Origin: Betaproteobacteria bacterium HGW-Betaproteobacteria-11
Lineage (GTDB): Bacteria; Pseudomonadota; Gammaproteobacteria; Burkholderiales; Rhodocyclaceae
Reading direction: 5' to 3'
Length of the DNA stretch: 64,000 nt
Assembly: GCA_002842395.1 (NCBI GenBank)
Contig: PHCV01000011.1
Span: 1 to 64,000 of the forward strand
Part shown: piece after piece, positions 21,581 to 64,000 of the stretch
Layout: each line of letters starts with the position of its first letter
How positions within the stretch are numbered: position 1 is the stretch's first letter
Program-made: the position numbers and the translations under genes
Notes under the pieces: generated by a model
The model's input: only the letters and a program-made list of their open reading frames with translations
The model's database searches: none
What the model was told of the DNA's origin: nothing

Positions 21581-22153
21581 CTATTTTGGGGGGTGCTTGG
21601 TCAGCTTGCGCTGCAGGGTACGCCGGTGCATGTTGAGCGCACGCGCGGTGCGCGAAATGTTGCCGTCATGCTCGGCCAGCACTTTGTTGATGTGTTCCCA
21701 TTCCAGCTTGTCGACCGTCATCGGTGAGTCGCCGATCGGCACGGTGGTGGTGCCGCCACTCCGCCCCAGAGCCAGCACGATGTCATCGGCATTGGCCGGC
21801 TTGGCCAGGTAGTGCGTGGCTCCGAGCTTGATCGCTTCGACCGCAGTGGCGACGCTGGCATAGCCGGTGAGGACGACGATGCGGGTCTGCGCATCGAGTT
21901 CGATCAGTTTTTCGACCAGATCGAGTCCGGAGGCGCCGGGCATTTTCAGGTCGATGACGGCATATTCGGGTGTCAGCTGGCGGGCGAGGGGAAGCGCTTC
22001 TTCGGCGCTGCCCGCCGTGCTGACGGCAAAGCCGCGGCGGCCCAGGGCGCGACCGAGCACCTCGCGCAAGTCGGCATCATCATCGACCAGCAGCAGGCTG
22101 GGCCACTCATCGCCTGGGTTGACCGGTGTGGTCCCGGTGATTTCAGTCTTCAT
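21581..22153 (-). CDS. regA: Redox response regulator RegA/PrrA/RoxR family
   Basis: 190 residues. A receiver domain with the acidic pocket VDDD (23-26) and phosphorylation site Asp68 in VIDLKMPG, then a short linker and a Fis-type helix-turn-helix, RTARALNMHRRTLQRKL, which is nearly invariant in RegA/PrrA/ActR/RoxR. These regulators control respiration, carbon and nitrogen fixation and electron transport genes in response to redox state. It overlaps regB by four bases. Three matching DNA boxes occur in this window. Confidence 0.95.
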   Translation of the reverse strand: MKTEITGTTPVNPGDEWPSLLLVDDDADLREVLGRALGRRGFAVSTAGSAEEALPLARQLTPEYAVIDLKMPGASGLDLVEKLIELDAQTRIVVLTGYASVATAVEAIKLGATHYLAKPANADDIVLALGRSGGTTTVPIGDSPMTVDKLEWEHINKVLAEHDGNISRTARALNMHRRTLQRKLTKHPPK

Positions 22154-23505
22154 TGGGTTTCCTCTTTCAGGGGCCTGATGGCGGACGAATCGACCGCCGG
22201 CAAGGTGATCCGGGTATGGGTGCCGCCGGATTCCCGCGGCAAGAGCTCGACCTTGCCGCCGAAGCGTTCGATGGTGGCGTTCGACAGGAACAGGCCGATG
22301 CCCAACCCGCCCTTGTCGCTACGGATGAAGGTCTTGCCCAGGCCCTCGGCCAGGACCGCATCGATGCCTGGCCCGTTGTCATCAATTTCGATCAGGCAAT
22401 GTGCGGCGGTCCAGGTATAACGCACCTCGATACCGGAGGGCGAGGCGTCGGCCGCATTGTCGAGCAGATTGAGGATGGCCTGCTCCAGCGTGCGGTTGGC
22501 GAAGAGTTGCGGCGGGCTGGATGAGCATTTCTCCGCGGGCACGGCGAGCAAGCTGCAGCGGGCGGCGGGCCGGAGCAGTTGCCATTGATCCAGGCAGTGG
22601 GTGACCAGTTCGGACAGGGTGACCAAAGCACCGCTTTCGCGGCGTTCCTGCCCGGCGGTACTGAGCATTTCGGAGAGAATGTTCTTGCAGTTATTCACCT
22701 GGTTTTCCATTAGCGCGAGGTCGGCTTCCAGCTCTTTTTCCCCGGCATGGGCCAGGCGCAATTCGTGGAGGACGACGGCCAGCGTGGTCAGCGGCGTGCC
22801 CATCTGGTGCGCCGCGCCGGCGGCCAGGGTGCCGAGCGCCAGCACCTGCTCGTGACGCAGTGCCTGTTCGCGTGTTGCCGCCAGCAGCGCATCGCGTCGA
22901 CGCAGCGCCTGCGCCATGCGGCTGACGAACAGGGTGATGAGGAGCGCGCTGAGCACGAAATTGAGCAGCATGCCGAGAATGTGCAAGCCGAAGCCATGGC
23001 CGGACAAGTGAGCTTCGTGGCCCTTTGCCACGCCGGTCAGTGTCAGCAGGTACTCATCGAACCCGGCCAGGTTTTCCGAAGGCGGCGGCAGCGGAACATT
23101 GAAAAATATCAGCAGCGCGTAAGCGGCGAACGCCACCAGCGTGAGCAGTCCGATATCGATCGGCGAGAGCAGCATGGCGCCGATGGTCAGCGGCAGCAGC
23201 AGCAGCGAGACGAAAGGATTGACCGAGCCGCCGGTGAAGTAGAGCAGGCCGGCCAGCGCGATCAGATCGAGGGCGAGCTGCAGCAGCAGCTCGCGGCTGC
23301 CGGGCTCGCCGAGCGTGCTCAGGCGGCCGAGGCTCGCCACGTTGAGCACGATCAGGACGAACACGATACCCCACAACGCGGCAAAGGGCAGCTTCAGTTG
23401 CAGGTAGCCACCGACGAAAAACAGAGCCGCCGAAATCATCAGGATCTCGATCCAGCGCAGGGCGACGAGGCGTTGCAGCGGGTTGGCGGAGAATGAAAAC
23501 AGCAT
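22150..23505 (-). CDS. regB: Redox sensor histidine kinase RegB/PrrB/RoxS family
   Basis: 451 residues from ATG 23505. Six membrane segments in the first 200 residues include GGSVNPF (92-98), which matches the GGXXNPF quinone-binding heptapeptide of RegB. The H-box is HQMGTPLTTL (His233) and Cys273 in NNCKNIL sits where the redox-active cysteine of RegB is found. The kinase domain has DNGPGID and GGLGIGLFL. It senses quinone pool/oxygen state and phosphorylates RegA. A RegA-type box lies 57 bp upstream of the start. Confidence 0.95.
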   Translation of the reverse strand: MLFSFSANPLQRLVALRWIEILMISAALFFVGGYLQLKLPFAALWGIVFVLIVLNVASLGRLSTLGEPGSRELLLQLALDLIALAGLLYFTGGSVNPFVSLLLLPLTIGAMLLSPIDIGLLTLVAFAAYALLIFFNVPLPPPSENLAGFDEYLLTLTGVAKGHEAHLSGHGFGLHILGMLLNFVLSALLITLFVSRMAQALRRRDALLAATREQALRHEQVLALGTLAAGAAHQMGTPLTTLAVVLHELRLAHAGEKELEADLALMENQVNNCKNILSEMLSTAGQERRESGALVTLSELVTHCLDQWQLLRPAARCSLLAVPAEKCSSSPPQLFANRTLEQAILNLLDNAADASPSGIEVRYTWTAAHCLIEIDDNGPGIDAVLAEGLGKTFIRSDKGGLGIGLFLSNATIERFGGKVELLPRESGGTHTRITLPAVDSSAIRPLKEETQ

Positions 23506-23561
23506 GGGTTCGGCAGCGAACGGAATACTGCATTCTACAAGCCGGATTTTCCTGCCGCGCC

Positions 23562-23576
23562 GCGGCATTTTGTCGC
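23562..23576 (-). promoter_or_regulatory. Candidate RegA box upstream of regB
   Basis: GCGGC-ATTTT-GTCGC on the plus strand, which equals the consensus GCGGC-N5-GTCGC that I recall for RegA of Rhodobacter. It lies 57-71 bp upstream of the regB ATG, a position suited to autoregulation. It is one of three such boxes in promoter regions of the window. Confidence 0.6.
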
Positions 23577-23671
23577 AGGACAGGCGATTCAGTCGGTTCA
23601 CTCAATTGATACGCATGGCCTCGGCCGGGCATGTCGAGAAGCTCATGGGCCGGATCAGGCGAATCCCCGGC

Positions 23672-50165: not shown

Positions 50166-52166
50166 TCAGAACGAGGCACTCAAACCAATCCGATAATTTC
50201 GACCAGGCATCGGATACCCTGCATTGTATTCATAAGACGCATTGAACAGGTTGTTGGCGCTGACGAAGACTTCGCCTTTCTTGCCTAGGCTGGGCAGTGG
50301 GTAGGCTATCCGTAGATTGGCGACGGTAAATGCCTTGACTTCATCGTTGTCTCCGGTCAGGCTTCGGTCCCAAGTTTGGGAGTACATCTTGGTTTGGTGT
50401 TGTGCATCGAAGGCGACACGGAAGTTGGCGATATTTCCGTTAGCGCCGACTGAGTAAGCCATGTTGGGTGCGAAGGGGACATTATTTACCGAGGGATCCA
50501 GATGAGTTACGCCAGCAAAAACGACCCAATCCGTACCGAATTCCTGCCGAACCGTGGCTTCTGCACCACGCATTTTGTAGTCAGGGTAGCTGTTGCTCCA
50601 CACGCTCGTTGCAAAGGGCGTGAAGCCGGACCAAACATAGCGGTCGCTGACCTTATCCTGGAAGACACTGATATCAAGATGGGTAGTCGCAGTAACATCC
50701 CACTTCGCACCGACTTCGGTATGCTTGTTTCGTTCAGGAGAGAGAGTATCCCAGCCGTTGTTGGCCATGAATGCCATTGGCAAAGCACGGGTCAGGGAAT
50801 AGGTTTCCGCTCCCGGATACAGAATGCCTTCCGAATGGTTGGCGTAGACCGTCAGGTTGTCACGAATAAGCGATAGACCGACATTCGACGCTGTCTTGGA
50901 TGCGTAGATATTGCTTCGATAGGTCCGCACCCCGACAGAGGGCTGCAATACCCAGTTGTTTCCCAAGTTGAACTTGTGGTTGATGCCGAGATAGGGGGAG
51001 GTTACCCGGAATGTCGGAACGTCGGCAGTGCCCGCTACACCAAAGGCAAAGGGAGTTCCCACCGCGGAGCCGACATGAGGTCCGCTCATCGAACCGGAGA
51101 TCGCATCGTAATCAATCCCTGCCACGACCTCACCACCTTGCCAGGGACTGAATTGCTCTCTCCAGCGTACCCCGGTCATATCAAAGTTGCTTTTGAAGGT
51201 TCCCCAGTTGGCATCCTGGGTAATATCGTTCTTGCCCCTGTTGGAGTAAACTTTGAACTCGCCACGCCAACCCTCGTTCTGGTGCGTTACAAAGGCCATC
51301 ACCATATCCGTGGCGCTATCGTTCCGGCCGACACCGTTGGATTGATAAGGGCCAACGGGGGCAGTCGTGGTTAGATAACGGTTGTCACCCGGGTCACCAA
51401 CCTTGTTTTCCACATGGAGGAAACTCAGGCCGGCTGACCATACGTCATTCATACGGAAGGTGACTTTCCCTAAAGCATTCTTGAGGTCGGCATCCCCATT
51501 GGGACGATAGCCATCGGAGTCTGCGCTGCCTATGGCCAATGCGAAGTCCACTGCGTCAGAGCGGCCAAACAGGTTGCCCTGAAGGATATGGGTTCCGTAA
51601 GAACCGACCGCAGCACTGGCATCGCCGTGAATGCCATTTTCTGTTGGCGTCTTTGTTAGCAGGTTAACAGATGCAAAGTTATTCCCGGACACCAGAGGTT
51701 GCGGGCCTTTGTTGATCTCGATGGTTTCGATGCCATTCAGCGGGAGCAAATCCATCAATGGGTGATTCCACAACCCCATGTAGACGGGTAAGCCATCAAG
51801 ATAGGTTTTGATTTCGCTGCCAGGTCGGCTGGTTCCCATGCCGCGGACGTAAACACTGCCCCCTTGGTTACCCGAGTAGTTACCCACCGAATCGTAAAGA
51901 GAGACTTGAACACCAGGTGTCATTCGCAAAGCATCCGGTAGGCTCAAAGCCCCCAGATCCCTGATCTGTTTATCAGTGACCCTGGTAGTCAATGTCGAGA
52001 AGCCATCAACCCGGGTGGAGTCGACGATGGGGTTTGCAGTCACAGAAATACTCGACAGTTCAGCAACGGACGTTTCTTGTGCCCAAGTACTGGCTGCAAC
52101 AAATAGACTGGCAATAGCCATAGTCAGCGGCTTGAGTACTAACCCACGATCGATAGTTTGTCCCAT
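50166..52166 (-). CDS. TonB-dependent outer-membrane receptor
   Basis: 666 residues. Signal peptide to about residue 30 (ASLFVAASTWAQE), a plug domain with TLTTRVTDKQIRDLGALSLP, DALRMTPGVQVS and VYVRGMGTSRPGSEIKTYLD, then a 22-strand barrel ending in YNAGYPMPGRNYRIGLSASF. The terminal Phe is typical of outer-membrane barrels. The ligand cannot be told; metal or metal-chelate uptake is plausible from the His-rich partner downstream. A RegA-type box lies about 104 bp and a hairpin about 27 bp upstream. Confidence 0.9.
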   Translation of the reverse strand: MGQTIDRGLVLKPLTMAIASLFVAASTWAQETSVAELSSISVTANPIVDSTRVDGFSTLTTRVTDKQIRDLGALSLPDALRMTPGVQVSLYDSVGNYSGNQGGSVYVRGMGTSRPGSEIKTYLDGLPVYMGLWNHPLMDLLPLNGIETIEINKGPQPLVSGNNFASVNLLTKTPTENGIHGDASAAVGSYGTHILQGNLFGRSDAVDFALAIGSADSDGYRPNGDADLKNALGKVTFRMNDVWSAGLSFLHVENKVGDPGDNRYLTTTAPVGPYQSNGVGRNDSATDMVMAFVTHQNEGWRGEFKVYSNRGKNDITQDANWGTFKSNFDMTGVRWREQFSPWQGGEVVAGIDYDAISGSMSGPHVGSAVGTPFAFGVAGTADVPTFRVTSPYLGINHKFNLGNNWVLQPSVGVRTYRSNIYASKTASNVGLSLIRDNLTVYANHSEGILYPGAETYSLTRALPMAFMANNGWDTLSPERNKHTEVGAKWDVTATTHLDISVFQDKVSDRYVWSGFTPFATSVWSNSYPDYKMRGAEATVRQEFGTDWVVFAGVTHLDPSVNNVPFAPNMAYSVGANGNIANFRVAFDAQHQTKMYSQTWDRSLTGDNDEVKAFTVANLRIAYPLPSLGKKGEVFVSANNLFNASYEYNAGYPMPGRNYRIGLSASF

Positions 52167-52269: not shown

Positions 52270-52286
52270 TGCGACAAATTGTCGCA
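52270..52286 (-). promoter_or_regulatory. Candidate RegA box upstream of the TonB receptor
   Basis: A perfect 17-bp palindrome, TGCGACAA-A-TTGTCGCA, containing GCGAC-AAATT-GTCGC (52271-52285), which fits the RegA/PrrA pattern GCGNC-N5-GNCGC. It is 104-120 bp upstream of the receptor start. A site for another dimeric repressor (metal-responsive) is the main alternative. Confidence 0.55.
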
Positions 52287-59097: not shown

Positions 59098-60234
59098 ATG
59101 CCTTCACCCGCTTCTTCGCCGCCTTTTTCTCCCGCCGCCCTGCGCCGCGCCCTGGTGATCAAGCTGCGCCATCATGGCGACGTGCTGCTCGCCGCGCCGG
59201 TGCTCTCGACGCTCCGGCAGTTCGCCCCGCAGTGCGAGATCGACGCGCTGGTCTATGCCGACACCGCGCCGATGCTGGCTGGCCATCCGGCGCTCGCCGA
59301 GCTCCACCTCATCGACCGCGCCTGGAAGCGGCAAGGGCCGTTGCGCCAGGCACTGGCCGAGGCACGGCTGCTTTCCTGCCTCACGGCGCGGCGCTATGAT
59401 CTTGTCATTCATCTCTCGGTGCATACCCGTGGCGCCTGGCTGGTGCGCTTGCTGCGCCCGCGCTGGTCGGTGGCGCCGCGTTACCGACCTGGTTTCTGGG
59501 AAAACAGCTTCACCCATCTTTACCCGGCCCAGTCGCACCCCGACCGGCCCACGGTGGATACCAACCTCGACAGCCTGCGCGCGCTGGGGCTTGAGCCATC
59601 CCGGGACGAGGCGCGGGTGATCCTCGTTCCCGGCGCGGCGGCCGAGGCGAAGATGGCCGCGCTGCTGGCGGCGCACGGGTTGAGCGCGGGCGGTTTCATC
59701 CACCTGCATCCCACTTCGCGCTGGCTGTTCAAGTGCTGGCCGGCGGAGCGGGTCGCGGCACTTTCGCGGGAACTCGCCGCGCGCGGCTGGCCGCTGGTGT
59801 TCACCGCCGCGCCGGAGGAAAGGGAGCGGGCGATGATGGCGCAAATCCTTGACGAACTCGGCCGGCCCGGCGTATCCCCAACGCCGACTTTTTTCGATTT
59901 CTCGGGCCGGTTCTCGCTCAAGGAACTGGCGGCGCTCACCGCCAAAGCGCGGCTCTTCGTCGGCGTCGATTCGGCGCCGATGCACATCGCCGCCGCGATG
60001 GGCACGCCGACGGTGGCCATCTTCGGTCCCTCCGGCGAGCGCGAATGGGGGCCCTGGCAGGTCACGCAACGCATCGTCACTTCCACCGCGCATGCCTGCC
60101 GCCCCTGCGGCCGCGCCGGCTGCAACGACAGCAAGATCAGCGAATGCCTGACCACGCTGCCGGTGGCGCAGGTGCTGGCGGCGTGCGACGAGTTGCTGGC
60201 GCTGCCGGTCGCCGCGCGGAGCGCAGCGGGATGA
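59098..60234 (+). CDS. waaQ: LPS heptosyltransferase III-type (WaaQ, GT9)
   Basis: 378 residues from ATG 59098. GT9 pattern: ALVIKLRHHGDVLLAAPVLS near the start, FIHLHPTSRWLFKCWPAERV in the middle and FVGVDSAPMHIAAAMGTPTV followed by IFGPSGEREWGPW. It adds heptose (or a similar ADP-sugar) to LPS inner core. The ATG lies at the break point of a transposase remnant, so the original upstream region may have been replaced. It overlaps the next gene by four bases. Confidence 0.9.
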   Translation: MPSPASSPPFSPAALRRALVIKLRHHGDVLLAAPVLSTLRQFAPQCEIDALVYADTAPMLAGHPALAELHLIDRAWKRQGPLRQALAEARLLSCLTARRYDLVIHLSVHTRGAWLVRLLRPRWSVAPRYRPGFWENSFTHLYPAQSHPDRPTVDTNLDSLRALGLEPSRDEARVILVPGAAAEAKMAALLAAHGLSAGGFIHLHPTSRWLFKCWPAERVAALSRELAARGWPLVFTAAPEERERAMMAQILDELGRPGVSPTPTFFDFSGRFSLKELAALTAKARLFVGVDSAPMHIAAAMGTPTVAIFGPSGEREWGPWQVTQRIVTSTAHACRPCGRAGCNDSKISECLTTLPVAQVLAACDELLALPVAARSAAG

Positions 60235-61343
60235 AGATCGCCCTGGTGCGCCAAAAGTACACTCCCTACGGCGGCGCCGAGCGCTTCGTCGCGCGCGCGC
60301 TGGAGGGCCTCGTGGCACAGGGCGTCGCGGTGGAGATCATCGCCCGCCGGTGGGCGCCGACGGCCGGCGTGGCGGGCCGCCGCGTCGATCCCTTCTATCT
60401 GGGCCGCACCTGGCGCGACTGGAGCTTCGCCCGCGCCGTGCAACGCATCATCGCCGCCGGCGACTATGACCTGGTGCAAAGCCACGAGCGAATTCCCGGC
60501 TGTCATGTCTATCGCGCCGGCGACGGCGTGCATGCCACCTGGCTCGAATTGCGCGGCACGCGCGCGCCCCTTTCGCCCTGGCATCGCTACACGCTGGCCG
60601 CCGAGGCGGCGCTGTTCCGCCATCCGAATCTGCGCGCGGTGATCTGCAATTCGACGATGGTCAGGGACGACATCGCGCGGCGCTTCGAGGTTGCCACCGA
60701 GAAACTGCATGTCATCACCAATGGCGTCGATCTCGAACAGTTTCATCCGCGGCTGCGCGAGGCGCACCGGCAGGCGTTGCGGCAAAAACTCGGCGTTGGC
60801 GAGACGGCGAGGGTGGCGCTGTTCGTCGGTTCCGGCTATGCCCGCAAGGGGCTGCCGGCGTTGCTCGAGGCCTTCGCTAGCCTGGCCATGCCACGGACCG
60901 AGCTATGGGTGGTCGGCCGCGACCGGCAGGAGGCGGCGATGCAGCGGCGGGCAGAGGCGCTGCTGGGCAGTGGACGCAACTCGCGGGTGCGCTTCTTCGG
61001 CGCGCAGGAGGATGTCCGCCCGTTCTACGGTGCTGCCGACCTGTTCGTCCTGCCGACGCGCTACGACCCGTTTCCCAATGCCGTGCTCGAAGCCCTGGCC
61101 TGCGGCCTGCCGGTGATCACCACCACCACCTGCGGCGCCGCCGAGCGGGTCGGCGCCAGCCATGGCGCGGTGATTCGCGCCGGCGATGTGACCGCGCTCG
61201 GCGAGCGGCTCACGGCGCTGCTCGCGCCCGGGGTGAGCGAGGCGATGCGCGGCGCGGCGCGGGAGAGCGTCGCCGATCTCGACCTGGCGTCGATGACCCG
61301 GCGCCTGCTCGCGCTGTACCAGCACCTGCTTGCCCGCGGCTGA
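60231..61343 (+). CDS. LPS core glycosyltransferase family 4 (WaaG-like)
   Basis: 370 residues from ATG 60231 (MKIALVRQKYTPYGGAERFV). Two Rossmann domains of a GT-B enzyme; the acceptor loop is YGGAERFVARALEGL, and the donor-binding part has LFVGSGYARKGLPALLEAFA and RYDPFPNAVLEALACGLPVI with the conserved Glu. It resembles LPS glucosyltransferase WaaG. It overlaps waaQ, so the pair works on the same LPS core. Confidence 0.88.
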   Translation: MKIALVRQKYTPYGGAERFVARALEGLVAQGVAVEIIARRWAPTAGVAGRRVDPFYLGRTWRDWSFARAVQRIIAAGDYDLVQSHERIPGCHVYRAGDGVHATWLELRGTRAPLSPWHRYTLAAEAALFRHPNLRAVICNSTMVRDDIARRFEVATEKLHVITNGVDLEQFHPRLREAHRQALRQKLGVGETARVALFVGSGYARKGLPALLEAFASLAMPRTELWVVGRDRQEAAMQRRAEALLGSGRNSRVRFFGAQEDVRPFYGAADLFVLPTRYDPFPNAVLEALACGLPVITTTTCGAAERVGASHGAVIRAGDVTALGERLTALLAPGVSEAMRGAARESVADLDLASMTRRLLALYQHLLARG

Positions 61344-61390
61344 TCTCCGCGAAAACCAAAAAATAGCGGAAAGCCTTGTGAACAGGGGGG

Positions 61391-61405
61391 GCGACAACAT
61401 GTCGC
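61391..61405 (+). promoter_or_regulatory. Candidate RegA box in the alkane monooxygenase promoter
   Basis: GCGAC-AACAT-GTCGC, fitting GCGNC-N5-GNCGC. It lies 156-170 bp upstream of the bmoX ATG and its right half overlaps the candidate sigma-54 -24 element. The same pattern occurs before regB and before the TonB receptor gene. Confidence 0.55.
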
Positions 61406-61417
61406 ATTGACCTTGCA
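61402..61417 (+). promoter_or_regulatory. Possible sigma-54 promoter for bmoX
   Basis: TCGCATTGACCTTGCA aligned to TGGCACG-N4-TTGCA matches the full -12 element and three of four core bases of the -24 element (CG instead of GG). The spacing is correct. Known sMMO and sBMO operons use sigma-54 promoters, which supports it, but the -24 mismatch keeps confidence low. Transcription would start near 61428, leaving a leader of about 130 bases. Confidence 0.35.
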
Positions 61418-61560
61418 AAGGACAGGGTTAACAATCGTTCTCTCATGGGACGTTCGATTTATGCTGGCGTAACCCTGAAGTGCTGATCGCTATCGTAGTC
61501 AGCAGAAAAGAAGGCGGATTCAAGGATGAAGTGCCCTTAAACGCAACAAAGGAGGAAGTG

Positions 61561-63150
61561 ATGGGAAATAACACGGCAGTAAAACAGGCCCTGAAGGCCA
61601 ATCCCGTACCGAGTTCGGTGGATCCGCAGGAAGTCCATAAGTGGCTTCAGGATTTTACTTGGGACTTCAAGTCCAAGACGGCGAAGTACCCCACCAAGTA
61701 CGACATGGACGTTAATACACGCGAGCAGTTCAAGTTGACGGCAAAAGAGTATGCGCGCATGGAGTCGAGCAAGGAAGAGCGCCAGTACGGCACGCTGCTT
61801 GACGGGCTCGACCGCCTTGACGCGGGTAACAAGGTGCACCCGAAGTGGGGTGAGGTGATGAAACTGGTCGCCAACTTCCTGGAGACGGGTGAATACGGCG
61901 CCATCTCCGGTTCGGCTCTGCTGTGGGATACGGCCCAGTCGCCCGAGCAGCGTAATGGTTATCTGGCCCAGGTGATCGACGAAATTCGCCACGTTAACCA
62001 GACGGCTTATGTAAATTACTATTATGGCAAGCACTATTATGATCCGGCTGGCCACACCAACATGCGCCAGCTGCGGGCGATCAACCCGCTCTATCCTGGA
62101 GTCAAGCGCGCCTTCGGTGAAGGCTTCCTGGCGGGTGACGCGGTGGAGTCCTCCATCAACCTTCAGCTGGTTGCCGAGGCCTGCTTCACCAACCCGCTGA
62201 TCGTTTCGCTTACTGAGTGGGCGGCGGCCAACGGCGACGAAATCACCCCGACGGTATTCCTGTCGATTGAAACGGATGAGCTTCGCCACATGGCCAACGG
62301 CTACCAGACCATCGTCTCGATCATGAACAACCCCGAGACGATGAAGTATCTGCAAACCGATCTTGACAATGCCTTCTGGACTCAGCACAAGTTCCTCACC
62401 CCCTTCGTCGGGGTGGCGCTTGAGTACGGTTCCAAGTACAAGGTCGAGCCGTGGGTCAAGTCGTGGAACCGCTGGGTGTACGAAGACTGGGCGGGGATCT
62501 GGCTGGGTCGTCTGCAGCAGTTCGGCGTCAAATCGCCAAAGTGCCTGCCGGATGCCAAGAAGGATGCGGTCTGGGCACACCACGATCTGGCGCTGTTGGC
62601 GCTGGCCCTGTGGCCGCTTACCGGCATTCGCATGGAATTGCCCGATCAGCAAGCGATGGAATGGTTCGAAGCCAACTATCCCGGCTGGTACAACCACTAC
62701 GGCAAAATCTACGACGAATGGCGCGCTGCCGGCTTCGAAGATCCGAAATCAGGCTTCTGCGGTGCGCTCTGGCTCATGGAGCGCGGCCACGGCATCTTCG
62801 TTGATCACGCCTCCGGTCTGCCGTTCTGCCCCAGCTTGGCAAAGAGCTCCGTCAACGCCCGGTTCGCCGAGTACAACGGCAAGCGCTACTCCTTCTCCGA
62901 GCCGCATGGCGAGCGCCAGTGGCTGCTTGAGCCTGAGCGTTACGAGTTCCAGAACTTCTTCGAACAGTTCGAGGGCTGGGAGCTTTCCGATCTCGTCAAG
63001 GCGGCGGGCGGTGTCCGTAGCGACGGCAAGACGCTGATGGCGCAGCCGCATCTGCGCGATACCGACATGTGGACGCTCGATGATCTCAAGCGGATCAACT
63101 TGACCATCCCCGATCCGATGAAGATCCTCAACTGGCAACCGATCCAGTAA
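61561..63150 (+). CDS. bmoX: Soluble butane monooxygenase-type hydroxylase alpha subunit
   Basis: 529 residues from ATG 61561, with AAAGGAGGAAG just upstream; the frame is open further upstream but this start is clear. Group III soluble di-iron monooxygenase. Iron ligands: Glu111, Glu141, His144, Glu206, Glu240, His243 (DEIRH and DELRH motifs). Gate residues Thr210, Asn211, Glu237 are kept. At the positions where butane and methane monooxygenase differ it has Gly113, Thr148 (Cys in MMO), Leu279, Gln320 and Phe321, the butane type. It should hydroxylate C2-C9 alkanes with reductase and regulatory subunits encoded downstream. Confidence 0.93.
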   Translation: MGNNTAVKQALKANPVPSSVDPQEVHKWLQDFTWDFKSKTAKYPTKYDMDVNTREQFKLTAKEYARMESSKEERQYGTLLDGLDRLDAGNKVHPKWGEVMKLVANFLETGEYGAISGSALLWDTAQSPEQRNGYLAQVIDEIRHVNQTAYVNYYYGKHYYDPAGHTNMRQLRAINPLYPGVKRAFGEGFLAGDAVESSINLQLVAEACFTNPLIVSLTEWAAANGDEITPTVFLSIETDELRHMANGYQTIVSIMNNPETMKYLQTDLDNAFWTQHKFLTPFVGVALEYGSKYKVEPWVKSWNRWVYEDWAGIWLGRLQQFGVKSPKCLPDAKKDAVWAHHDLALLALALWPLTGIRMELPDQQAMEWFEANYPGWYNHYGKIYDEWRAAGFEDPKSGFCGALWLMERGHGIFVDHASGLPFCPSLAKSSVNARFAEYNGKRYSFSEPHGERQWLLEPERYEFQNFFEQFEGWELSDLVKAAGGVRSDGKTLMAQPHLRDTDMWTLDDLKRINLTIPDPMKILNWQPIQ

Positions 63151-63250: not shown

Positions 63251-64000
63251 ATGTCTTCTAACGTTTTTATTCGCGGCATGGTTGATCCTGAGCGCCAGGC
63301 CCAGATCCAGGCGCTCGTTCCCAAGGCGCCGCTGGAAACGAAGCGCGACCACATTCCTTTTGCCAAGCGCGGCTGGCGTCGCCTCACCGAATACGAGGCA
63401 GTGATGCTGCATGCCCAGAATTCGCTCGATGCGATTCCCGGCAGTCAGGAAGTAGGCGAGACTGTACAGAAGTGGCCTGGCGGTCGGGGATCTTACAGTA
63501 TCGAATCGACCGCAGCGATAAGCAGCAACTGGTTCAATTTTCGCGACCCGTCCAAGCGCTGGTTCCAGCCCTACGTCAAACAGAAGACAGAGGAAGGGCA
63601 GACTGCCGAACGGGCGATGAAGGCTTGGGTCGAAGGTGGCGATACAGGGATGATGAACACAGCGTGGCTTAATCAGATCCTGAGCAAGCACTACGGCGCA
63701 ATGATTTTTAATGAATATGGCCTGTTCAGTGCGCATTCGACAACCACCTATGGCGCTCTTTCCGACCTTCTAAAGACTTGGATTTCCCAGGCCGCTTTTG
63801 ATAAGAACGACGCTGGACAGATGATTCAGATGCAACGGGTGCTGCTTGGCAAAGCCTTCCCTGGCTTTGATCCCAGCCTGGTTGAAGCCAAACAGGCCTG
63901 GACACAGGGTGAAGTCTGGAAACCTGCCCGCGAGTTCGTCGAGCATATCTGGGCGGACACCTACGACTGGGTTGAGCAGCTATGGGCTATGCACGCCGTC
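63251..64000 (+). CDS. bmoY: Soluble butane monooxygenase-type hydroxylase beta subunit (partial)
   Basis: Starts at ATG 63251, preceded by AAGGAG (63236-63241), and runs off the window after 250 codons. The sequence (MSSNVFIRGMVDPERQAQIQ; KRGWRRLTEYEAVMLHAQNS; GPSK-like NFRDPSKRWFQPYVKQKTEE) resembles MmoY/BmoY, the non-catalytic subunit of the hydroxylase. The complete family protein has about 390 residues, so about one third is missing. Same operon as bmoX. Confidence 0.92.
   Translation, partial: MSSNVFIRGMVDPERQAQIQALVPKAPLETKRDHIPFAKRGWRRLTEYEAVMLHAQNSLDAIPGSQEVGETVQKWPGGRGSYSIESTAAISSNWFNFRDPSKRWFQPYVKQKTEEGQTAERAMKAWVEGGDTGMMNTAWLNQILSKHYGAMIFNEYGLFSAHSTTTYGALSDLLKTWISQAAFDKNDAGQMIQMQRVLLGKAFPGFDPSLVEAKQAWTQGEVWKPAREFVEHIWADTYDWVEQLWAMHAV

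Follow-up and report, generated by a model that had tools for sequence, protein, structure and literature searches.

We analysed a window of 64,000 nucleotides (the whole stretch of DNA under study), which forms the start of a 93.7-kb contig of Betaproteobacteria bacterium HGW-Betaproteobacteria-11, and found that it ends within an operon resembling those of butane monooxygenases of the soluble methane monooxygenase (sMMO) type (Table 1). The first-pass annotation had placed bmoX downstream of a palindromic box, which we confirm, with the best solved relatives of the encoded protein being the alpha chains of sMMO. The set X, Y, B, Z, D and C, together with a groEL-like gene, is complete. The operon is shared with the Pbmo locus of Thauera butanivorans (BmoX 95.6%, its best named relative; BmoC 75%; BmoG 71%), as is the ribosome-binding stretch, and the proteins missed the equivalog cut-offs of the methanotroph NCBIfam models; we describe the cluster as butane monooxygenase-like and sMMO-type, with a predicted substrate.

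Table 1. Features of the bmo locus, of other boxes in the window and of methanotroph loci (positions in the window unless a contig or locus is named).
Feature	Position	Strand	Remark
RegA/PrrA/ActR-family response regulator	21584..22153	-	Fis-type HTH
RegB/PrrB/ActS-family sensor kinase	22153..23505	-	GGSVNPF, H-box, putative redox-box Cys
Box before regB, TGCGACAAAATGCCGCG	23561..23577	-
Perfect box TGCGACAAATTGTCGCA	52270..52286		upstream of another TonB-dependent receptor gene (50166-52166, -)
Glycosyltransferase gene	60225..61343	+	3' end inside repeat
Repeat copy 1	61194..61446	+	3' end of glycosyltransferase gene, box and promoter, through CTCTCAT
RegA-type box GGCGACAACATGTCGCA	61390..61406	+	13/14 versus TGCGRCANNNTGYCGCA; 10/11 versus published RegR box
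Palindrome core GCGACAACATGTCGC	61391..61405		letters checked
Sigma-54 candidate of the first-pass annotation, TCGCATTGACCTTGCA	61402..61417	+	rejected: no GG at -24
-35 hexamer TTGACC	61407..61412	+	abuts box; same place in copy 2 and G148
-10 hexamer AACAAT	61430..61435	+	AATAAT in copy 2 and G148
Possible sigma-54 relic CTGGC...TGCTGA	61461..61483	+	GG-N14-GC instead of GG-N10-GC; weak
bmoX, hydroxylase alpha subunit	61561..63150	+
bmoY	63251..64000	+	continues beyond window
bmoB, Z, D, C, an ORF, groEL-like bmoG	downstream of bmoY, up to contig 69171
Repeat copy 2	contig 69695-69922		before OprC-like receptor gene
OprC-like TonB-dependent receptor gene	L006 9944-12187		directly after repeat copy 2
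BmoR-family protein	contig 80161-82143
mmoX dyad loci and box-bearing loci	L228, L232, L243, L247-L249, L251-L255, L262, L263
mmoR boxes	L198-L277 upstream of mmoR; L326 3359-3375	- (L326)

The whole bmo cluster is bracketed by a direct repeat of about 250 bp, the copies of which are 92.5% identical (gaps not counted); with 17 mismatches and 27 gap columns between them, an assembly artefact is unlikely. Because copy 2 runs into the OprC-like receptor gene, and because G148, a genome of the same genus, has a receptor gene with a perfect box, TTGACC and AATAAT and no sMMO match, the promoter is most simply the receptor's, with the bmo operon holding a copy of it; G148 also shows no glycosyltransferase match in the 12 kb fetched. 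Over the 57 nt from the box start the repeat copies show four differences, two of which are derived in the bmoX copy as judged against copy 2 and G148, namely the loss of the outer T of the box, where a G is found in 1 of 27 family receptor boxes, and AACAAT for AATAAT. Since the derived changes hit both the box and the -10 hexamer, and since the core (42/46) is not conserved above the flank (168/181; p-value 0.75), the bmo promoter may be either tuned or decaying. A small gene on the reverse strand (L006 9280-9573) lies between bmoG and copy 2, and part of it has a weak match in the T. butanivorans locus, in the flank far upstream.

Next to the box we found the arrangement TTGACC-N17-AACAAT, with hexamers resembling TTGACA and TATAAT at a distance within 16-18 nt, which agrees with sigma-70 promoters at 9 of 12 letters and occurs once in the stretch versus 0.1 times expected; transcription would be expected to start near 61442. 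Across 48 homologous box promoters, a -10-like hexamer lies at offset 39/40 from the box start in 35, compared with a mean of 0.8 and a largest value of 5 for other offset pairs, and no conserved -35 was present in the 40 box promoters examined for it. A constant box-to--10 distance combined with a variable -35 is a hallmark of activator-dependent promoters, and the predicted layout of the box promoters is that of a sigma-70 promoter aided by an activator close to -43. Just 3' of the -10 hexamer, a weak terminator-like hairpin with a T-rich tail (61436-61452) could attenuate transcription; it forms at the repeat edge with its second arm outside the repeat, and copy 2 thus lacks it.

The first-pass annotation had read a possible sigma-54 promoter at this place and had proposed that, if both elements are real, RegA would compete with sigma-54 polymerase. 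Its letters and coordinates for the palindrome and for the sigma-54 candidate are correct, and both share 61402-61405. Upon closer examination, the candidate matches 9 of 11 letters and does not show the GG-N10-GC pair of a -24/-12 element, having CG in place of the near-invariant GG at -24; scores of at least 9 occur at 68 of the 235,346 scanned positions of its own genome, and the candidate is no better than chance. None of the 48 homologous box promoters has GG at the -24 place, and the G148 receptor promoter is without the -12 GC as well. The proposed overlap and competition fail on these grounds, and a sigma-70 promoter with conserved spacing stands there instead.

We then considered the box as a sequence motif. 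Within the window, TGCGACANNNTGTCGCA with at most two mismatches has three matches (23561, 52270 and 61390), compared with a mean of 0.37 per shuffled window and no shuffle out of 100 reaching three. The short form GCGAC-N5-GTCGC occurs at 7 places in the whole 2.34-Mb genome and is weak evidence by itself, because the reversed-pattern control occurs at 30. Boxes of RegA, PrrA and RegR have been published, and of the fixed positions of the RegR box GNGRCRTTNNGNCGC, as quoted in PMC5506826, the box at 61390 has 10 of 11 and the window's regB box 11 of 11. Across the family, a box of at least 12/14 was found in 27 of the 30 best receptor upstreams (21/1500 shuffles; 4/150 inside-gene stretches) and in 25 of 30 regB upstreams, own regB included (26/1500 shuffles). 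The shuffle counts for the window and for the family receptor and regB upstreams rule out a palindrome arising by chance.

When separating the genomes by the presence of RegA (a match at E 1e-25 or better), we observe the box before the receptor gene in 45 of 53 RegA-positive versus 2 of 17 RegA-negative genomes (Fisher p-value 7e-8, kinship ignored). The tally left out partial receptor genes, weak matches, G047 (where the contig ends at the gene) and G102 (partial). The RegA-negative genomes keeping the box are G028 and G113, and the RegA-positive ones without it at 12/14 are G193, G127, G067, G055, G150, G103, G172 and G182. Among the last-added upstreams (16 newly fetched, plus G182 and G129), none of 6 RegA-negative genomes has a box, and of 12 RegA-positive ones 8 have it and 4 do not. 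This larger count strengthens the link between RegA and the box but makes the bmo-specific step no firmer. In G078, G008, G182 and G129, moreover, less than 5 kb separates regBA from the receptor gene; a perfect box stands between regBA and the receptor gene in G078 and G008, and G182 has no box of at least 12 before the receptor gene. That the box is of the RegA type is thus supported by its recurrence before the family's regB and OprC-like receptor genes and by the way it follows the presence of RegA. The palindrome is best read as a RegA-type box, supported as a predicted site, and its link to RegBA is probable; the proposed connection of the bmo operon to RegBA holds as a prediction from sequence.

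The genome has its own RegB-RegA pair. RegA scores 195.5 bits, below the NF033791 cut-off of 250 yet with this family the best by far, and RegB scores 211 bits, below the NF033792 cut-off of 350 yet again with this as its best family; the HTH of RegA is close to that of PrrA (1umq) and to that of the response regulator 3rqi. In RegB we found the quinone motif GGSVNPF, the H-box AAHQM and the cysteine of ENQVNNCKNIL, which we take to be the redox box. A quinone motif GGXXNPF is described in PMC8191878 and a RegB redox box in PMC5506826. RegA binds copper according to PMC9147068; the cysteine named in that paper can have no counterpart here, because this RegA contains no cysteine at all. The pair, the box consensus and the HTH are shared with the RegA/PrrA/RegR regulons of Rhodobacter, Bradyrhizobium and Acidithiobacillus, the targets of which include photosynthesis, denitrification, iron and sulfur oxidation and iron uptake, according to PMC5359404, PMC13274454, PMC4064962 and PMC5506826.

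The only solved relatives of the OprC-like receptor found by sequence are OprC chains. It shares with the OprC/NosA copper receptors a partial plug and barrel alignment and a CxxxM-HxM copper site, in which C110PNHM aligns with that of OprC and H309FM is a pattern match only. In contrast to them, it falls below the TIGR01778 cut-off (131 versus 472 bits) and scores somewhat higher, although also below the cut-off, against the heme-receptor model TIGR01785 (167 versus 317 bits). NosA is described as anaerobic and copper-repressed in PMC8610252. Further boxes in G000, the genome of the window (C6:11400, C6:39241, C10:55940 and 59659; L029, L030, L031) include one before a HupE/UreJ and TonB-receptor pair (C6:11400), one before a BNR-repeat/thioredoxin-like/TonB-receptor set, and those at both ends of a TonB-ExbB-ExbD cluster (C10:55940, 59659). 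Much of the predicted RegA regulon would accordingly be TonB-linked uptake. A likeness is found in the methanotroph Methylomonas sp. DH-1, where RegBA raises TonB-receptor genes along with tonB and feo genes, whereas ChIP in PMC13274454 showed binding at feo only, and not at the receptor or tonB promoters; DH-1 differs in being without sMMO. Two CuMMO (amoC/pmoC-type) operons of G000 (C3:113482 and C1:198874; L033, L032) are also preceded by boxes of 13/14, at distances of 137 and 419 bp; we do not claim these boxes as functional, because no such box is found upstream of the amoC relatives of G148 and G086.

Comparison with T. butanivorans reveals a different promoter. Its bmoX has a perfect -24/-12 element, TGGCACGACACTTGCT, at -93 (11/11), whereas HGW-Betaproteobacteria-11 has none intact and carries the RegA-type box and sigma-70 promoter in place of it. 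A GG/GC element of at least 9/11 was found in 64 of 76 sMMO X-gene upstreams (of 80 loci, L245, L264, L268 and L277 were dropped for having less than 420 bp upstream), whereas the best of this bmoX is 6/11 in 420 bp. T. butanivorans in turn has no box of at least 12/14 in the 600 bp before bmoX, and the idea that its genus is without RegA proved wrong, as T. butanivorans (G199) has a 56% RegA relative. Upstream homology between the two begins only at the ribosome-binding stretch. A possible sigma-54 relic rests on a shared 8-mer at -100 versus -97 in T. butanivorans, for which 48 of 1000 shuffles were equally good, and the leader comparison with G086 was not significant (43/500); we do not claim the relic or a surviving Thauera-type leader.

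The BmoR of T. butanivorans is alcohol-responsive, with BmoR and its UAS treated in PMC8899819. A BmoR-family protein, 43% identical to BmoR, is encoded in the downstream DNA, where the first-pass annotation had suggested searching for such an activator. It is full-length and a reciprocal best match among the activators compared (18 loci, made up of 17 activator loci and L194, and not all 28 PF00158 matches of G086). Two other BmoR proteins are 84% identical to each other; the present one may nevertheless be a true, fast-changing BmoR, because BmoG of this cluster likewise shows no more than 71% and 51% identity to the BmoG of those two systems. The repeat, the box with its conservation in the family, the promoter geometry, the tracking of RegA and the lack of a normal sigma-54 element are all directly observed. 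The bmo operon seems to have been re-wired, since the sigma-54 promoter of T. butanivorans has no intact counterpart here and the box promoter is duplicated.

Our preferred reading, to which we assign a probability of roughly 0.7, is that a promoter duplication moved the bmo operon from BmoR/sigma-54 to RegA/sigma-70, most likely with activation as the outcome. From the sequence we infer the RegA binding, the activation, the signal and the order of the rearrangement events. The box-promoter unit would originally have belonged to the OprC-like receptor, and a copy of it, together with the end of the glycosyltransferase gene, would have come to lie before bmo genes that are T. butanivorans-like, with the ancestral BmoR/sigma-54 promoter lost or broken. 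With the quinone pool reduced, RegB, a kinase carrying the quinone-binding motif and the putative redox cysteine, would switch on the genome's own RegA-type response regulator, which would bind the box directly upstream of the sigma-70 -35, with the box centre near -43/-44, the position of a class II activator. RegA would then increase the expression of bmo and, alongside it, of the receptor gene, further TonB-receptor genes and regBA itself.

Alternatively, the box promoter may be an idle passenger, with bmo transcription coming instead from a promoter that escaped detection, from read-through, or from a sigma-54 promoter that is damaged but served by the BmoR-like protein of contig 80161-82143. 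The changes in the box and -10 hexamer, the core without excess conservation, the full-length BmoR-family protein on the same contig and the possible GG-N14-GC relic at the right distance fit this, whereas a 9/12 sigma-70 promoter is still there, no GG/GC element above 6/11 exists in 420 bp, and the protein is only 43% identical to BmoR against the 84% between the two other BmoR proteins; we consider it rather unlikely. It is unlikely, too, that RegA binds and represses bmo, with relief by an oxidised quinone pool: the constant box-to--10 spacing and unconserved -35 are of the activator-dependent type, and the Acidithiobacillus RegA sites lie mostly upstream of the -35 without polymerase competition, as described in PMC5506826, although the box does abut the -35 and RegA-type regulators are reported to activate or repress (PMC5359404).

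A different regulator sharing the motif, for example a copper-responsive one, might read the box. Several boxes adjoin TonB-dependent receptor or TonB-ExbBD genes and two RegA-negative genomes keep the box, but boxes stand before regB in two distant groups, all three places of the pattern in Methylococcus capsulatus lie before regB, RegA presence predicts the box, and the published RegR box is matched; we judge such a regulator to be quite unlikely. Competition between RegA and sigma-54 polymerase at 61402-61417 is highly improbable, as the match at 9 of 11 letters is set against the CG for GG at -24, the lack of a -24 GG throughout the box promoters, the same letters preceding the receptor gene and the missing -12 in G148. 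The preferred reading thus remains that of a duplicated receptor promoter, with RegA as the predicted activator of bmo.

Next, we scanned 76 named sMMO loci as a negative control. Unexpectedly, a box of at least 12 was found within 420 bp of the X gene in 13 of the 76, compared with 8/1520 shuffles. In the Methylobacter/Methylovulum/Crenothrix-type group, the mmoX boxes form tandem series of dyads that overlap at a 15-bp pitch and stand, for the most part, 180-230 bp 5' of the sigma-54 element; two Methylococcus loci have single boxes. Two dyad arrays, separated by approximately 170-215 bp, occur in several mmoX loci, and in all three loci examined a small divergent gene lies beyond the arrays. 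RegA is present in 19 of the 20 sMMO genomes checked. A regB box was found in 6 of 18 sMMO genomes (G219, L306, was dropped, as regB was not found there), corresponding to 6 of 9 with mmoX boxes versus 0 of 9 without (Fisher p-value 0.009, kinship ignored). In the genome of M. capsulatus (Texas), YGYGRCANNNTGYCRCA occurs at three places, all of them before regB. In Methylobacter tundripaludum it precedes regB, mmoX, mmoR, a TonB-receptor gene and a gene of the PEP-synthase-like kind, with two further occurrences in an unassigned region. A palindromic box stands upstream of the PEP-synthase-like gene of M. tundripaludum (L308; G204 C2:246516). In G206 the pattern YGYGRCANNNTGYCRCA is also found in repeats, and three dyad pairs recur there at intervals of about 175 bp (L314-L322; C79:53741-54123), with no evident target gene in either case.

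The mmoR gene shows a clearer pattern. A box of at least 12 precedes 39 of 61 MmoR-like matches versus 11/1830 shuffles, with no box at the alphaproteobacterial matches among the 61. In 42 mostly methanotroph loci, the match starts no later than residue 140 of the MmoR query (479 residues); 40 of these loci carry a box of at least 11/14, and 39 one of at least 12. As a rule these 40 boxes are directly followed by TTGCCT, with a -10-like hexamer of the TATCTT type at offset 39 in 34 of them. The mmoR of M. capsulatus has TGCGACAATCAGCCGCA-TTGATG-N17-TACTGT. The distance from box to -10 is the same as in the receptor promoters and in the bmoX promoter studied here, and a sigma-54 element of at least 9 was found in none of the 40 within 90 nt from the box start. 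MmoR works with sigma-54 according to PMC5874634; for this reason autoregulation by MmoR is less likely and RegA likelier. The outer GCAA...TTGC of the mmoR boxes is symmetric too, and a factor other than RegA may bind there; common ancestry accounts for part of their conservation.

Among the titles and abstracts listed in the literature searched, outside which most subscription journals lie, none dealt with control of bmo, mmoX or mmoR by RegBA, and no soluble alkane or methane monooxygenase was found as a RegA-type target. We tentatively suggest, with somewhat less than even odds, that soluble methane and alkane monooxygenases are linked to the quinone-sensing RegBA by two or more independent routes, through the promoter capture at bmoX and through a RegA-dependent sigma-70 promoter of mmoR in gammaproteobacterial methanotrophs, plus the mmoX box arrays of the Methylobacter/Methylovulum/Crenothrix-type group, and that RegBA may be a missing element of the copper switch, a switch treated in PMC4831470. 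Once copper-dependent pMMO no longer draws on quinol, RegB would detect that the pool is reduced, and mmoR, and with it sMMO, would be switched on by RegA.

How redox state and copper govern sMMO in methanotrophs is incompletely understood; if the mmoR box is a RegA site, deleting regA in one cultured strain could put this control to the test. Furthermore, if the proposal is true, OprC/NosA-type receptors would gain a candidate regulator, the mechanism of oprC down-regulation in copper stress being called unknown in PMC8610252. In HGW-Betaproteobacteria-11, a bmo-type operon seems to have come under a different sigma factor and a different signal when the promoter of the neighbouring OprC-like receptor gene was copied.
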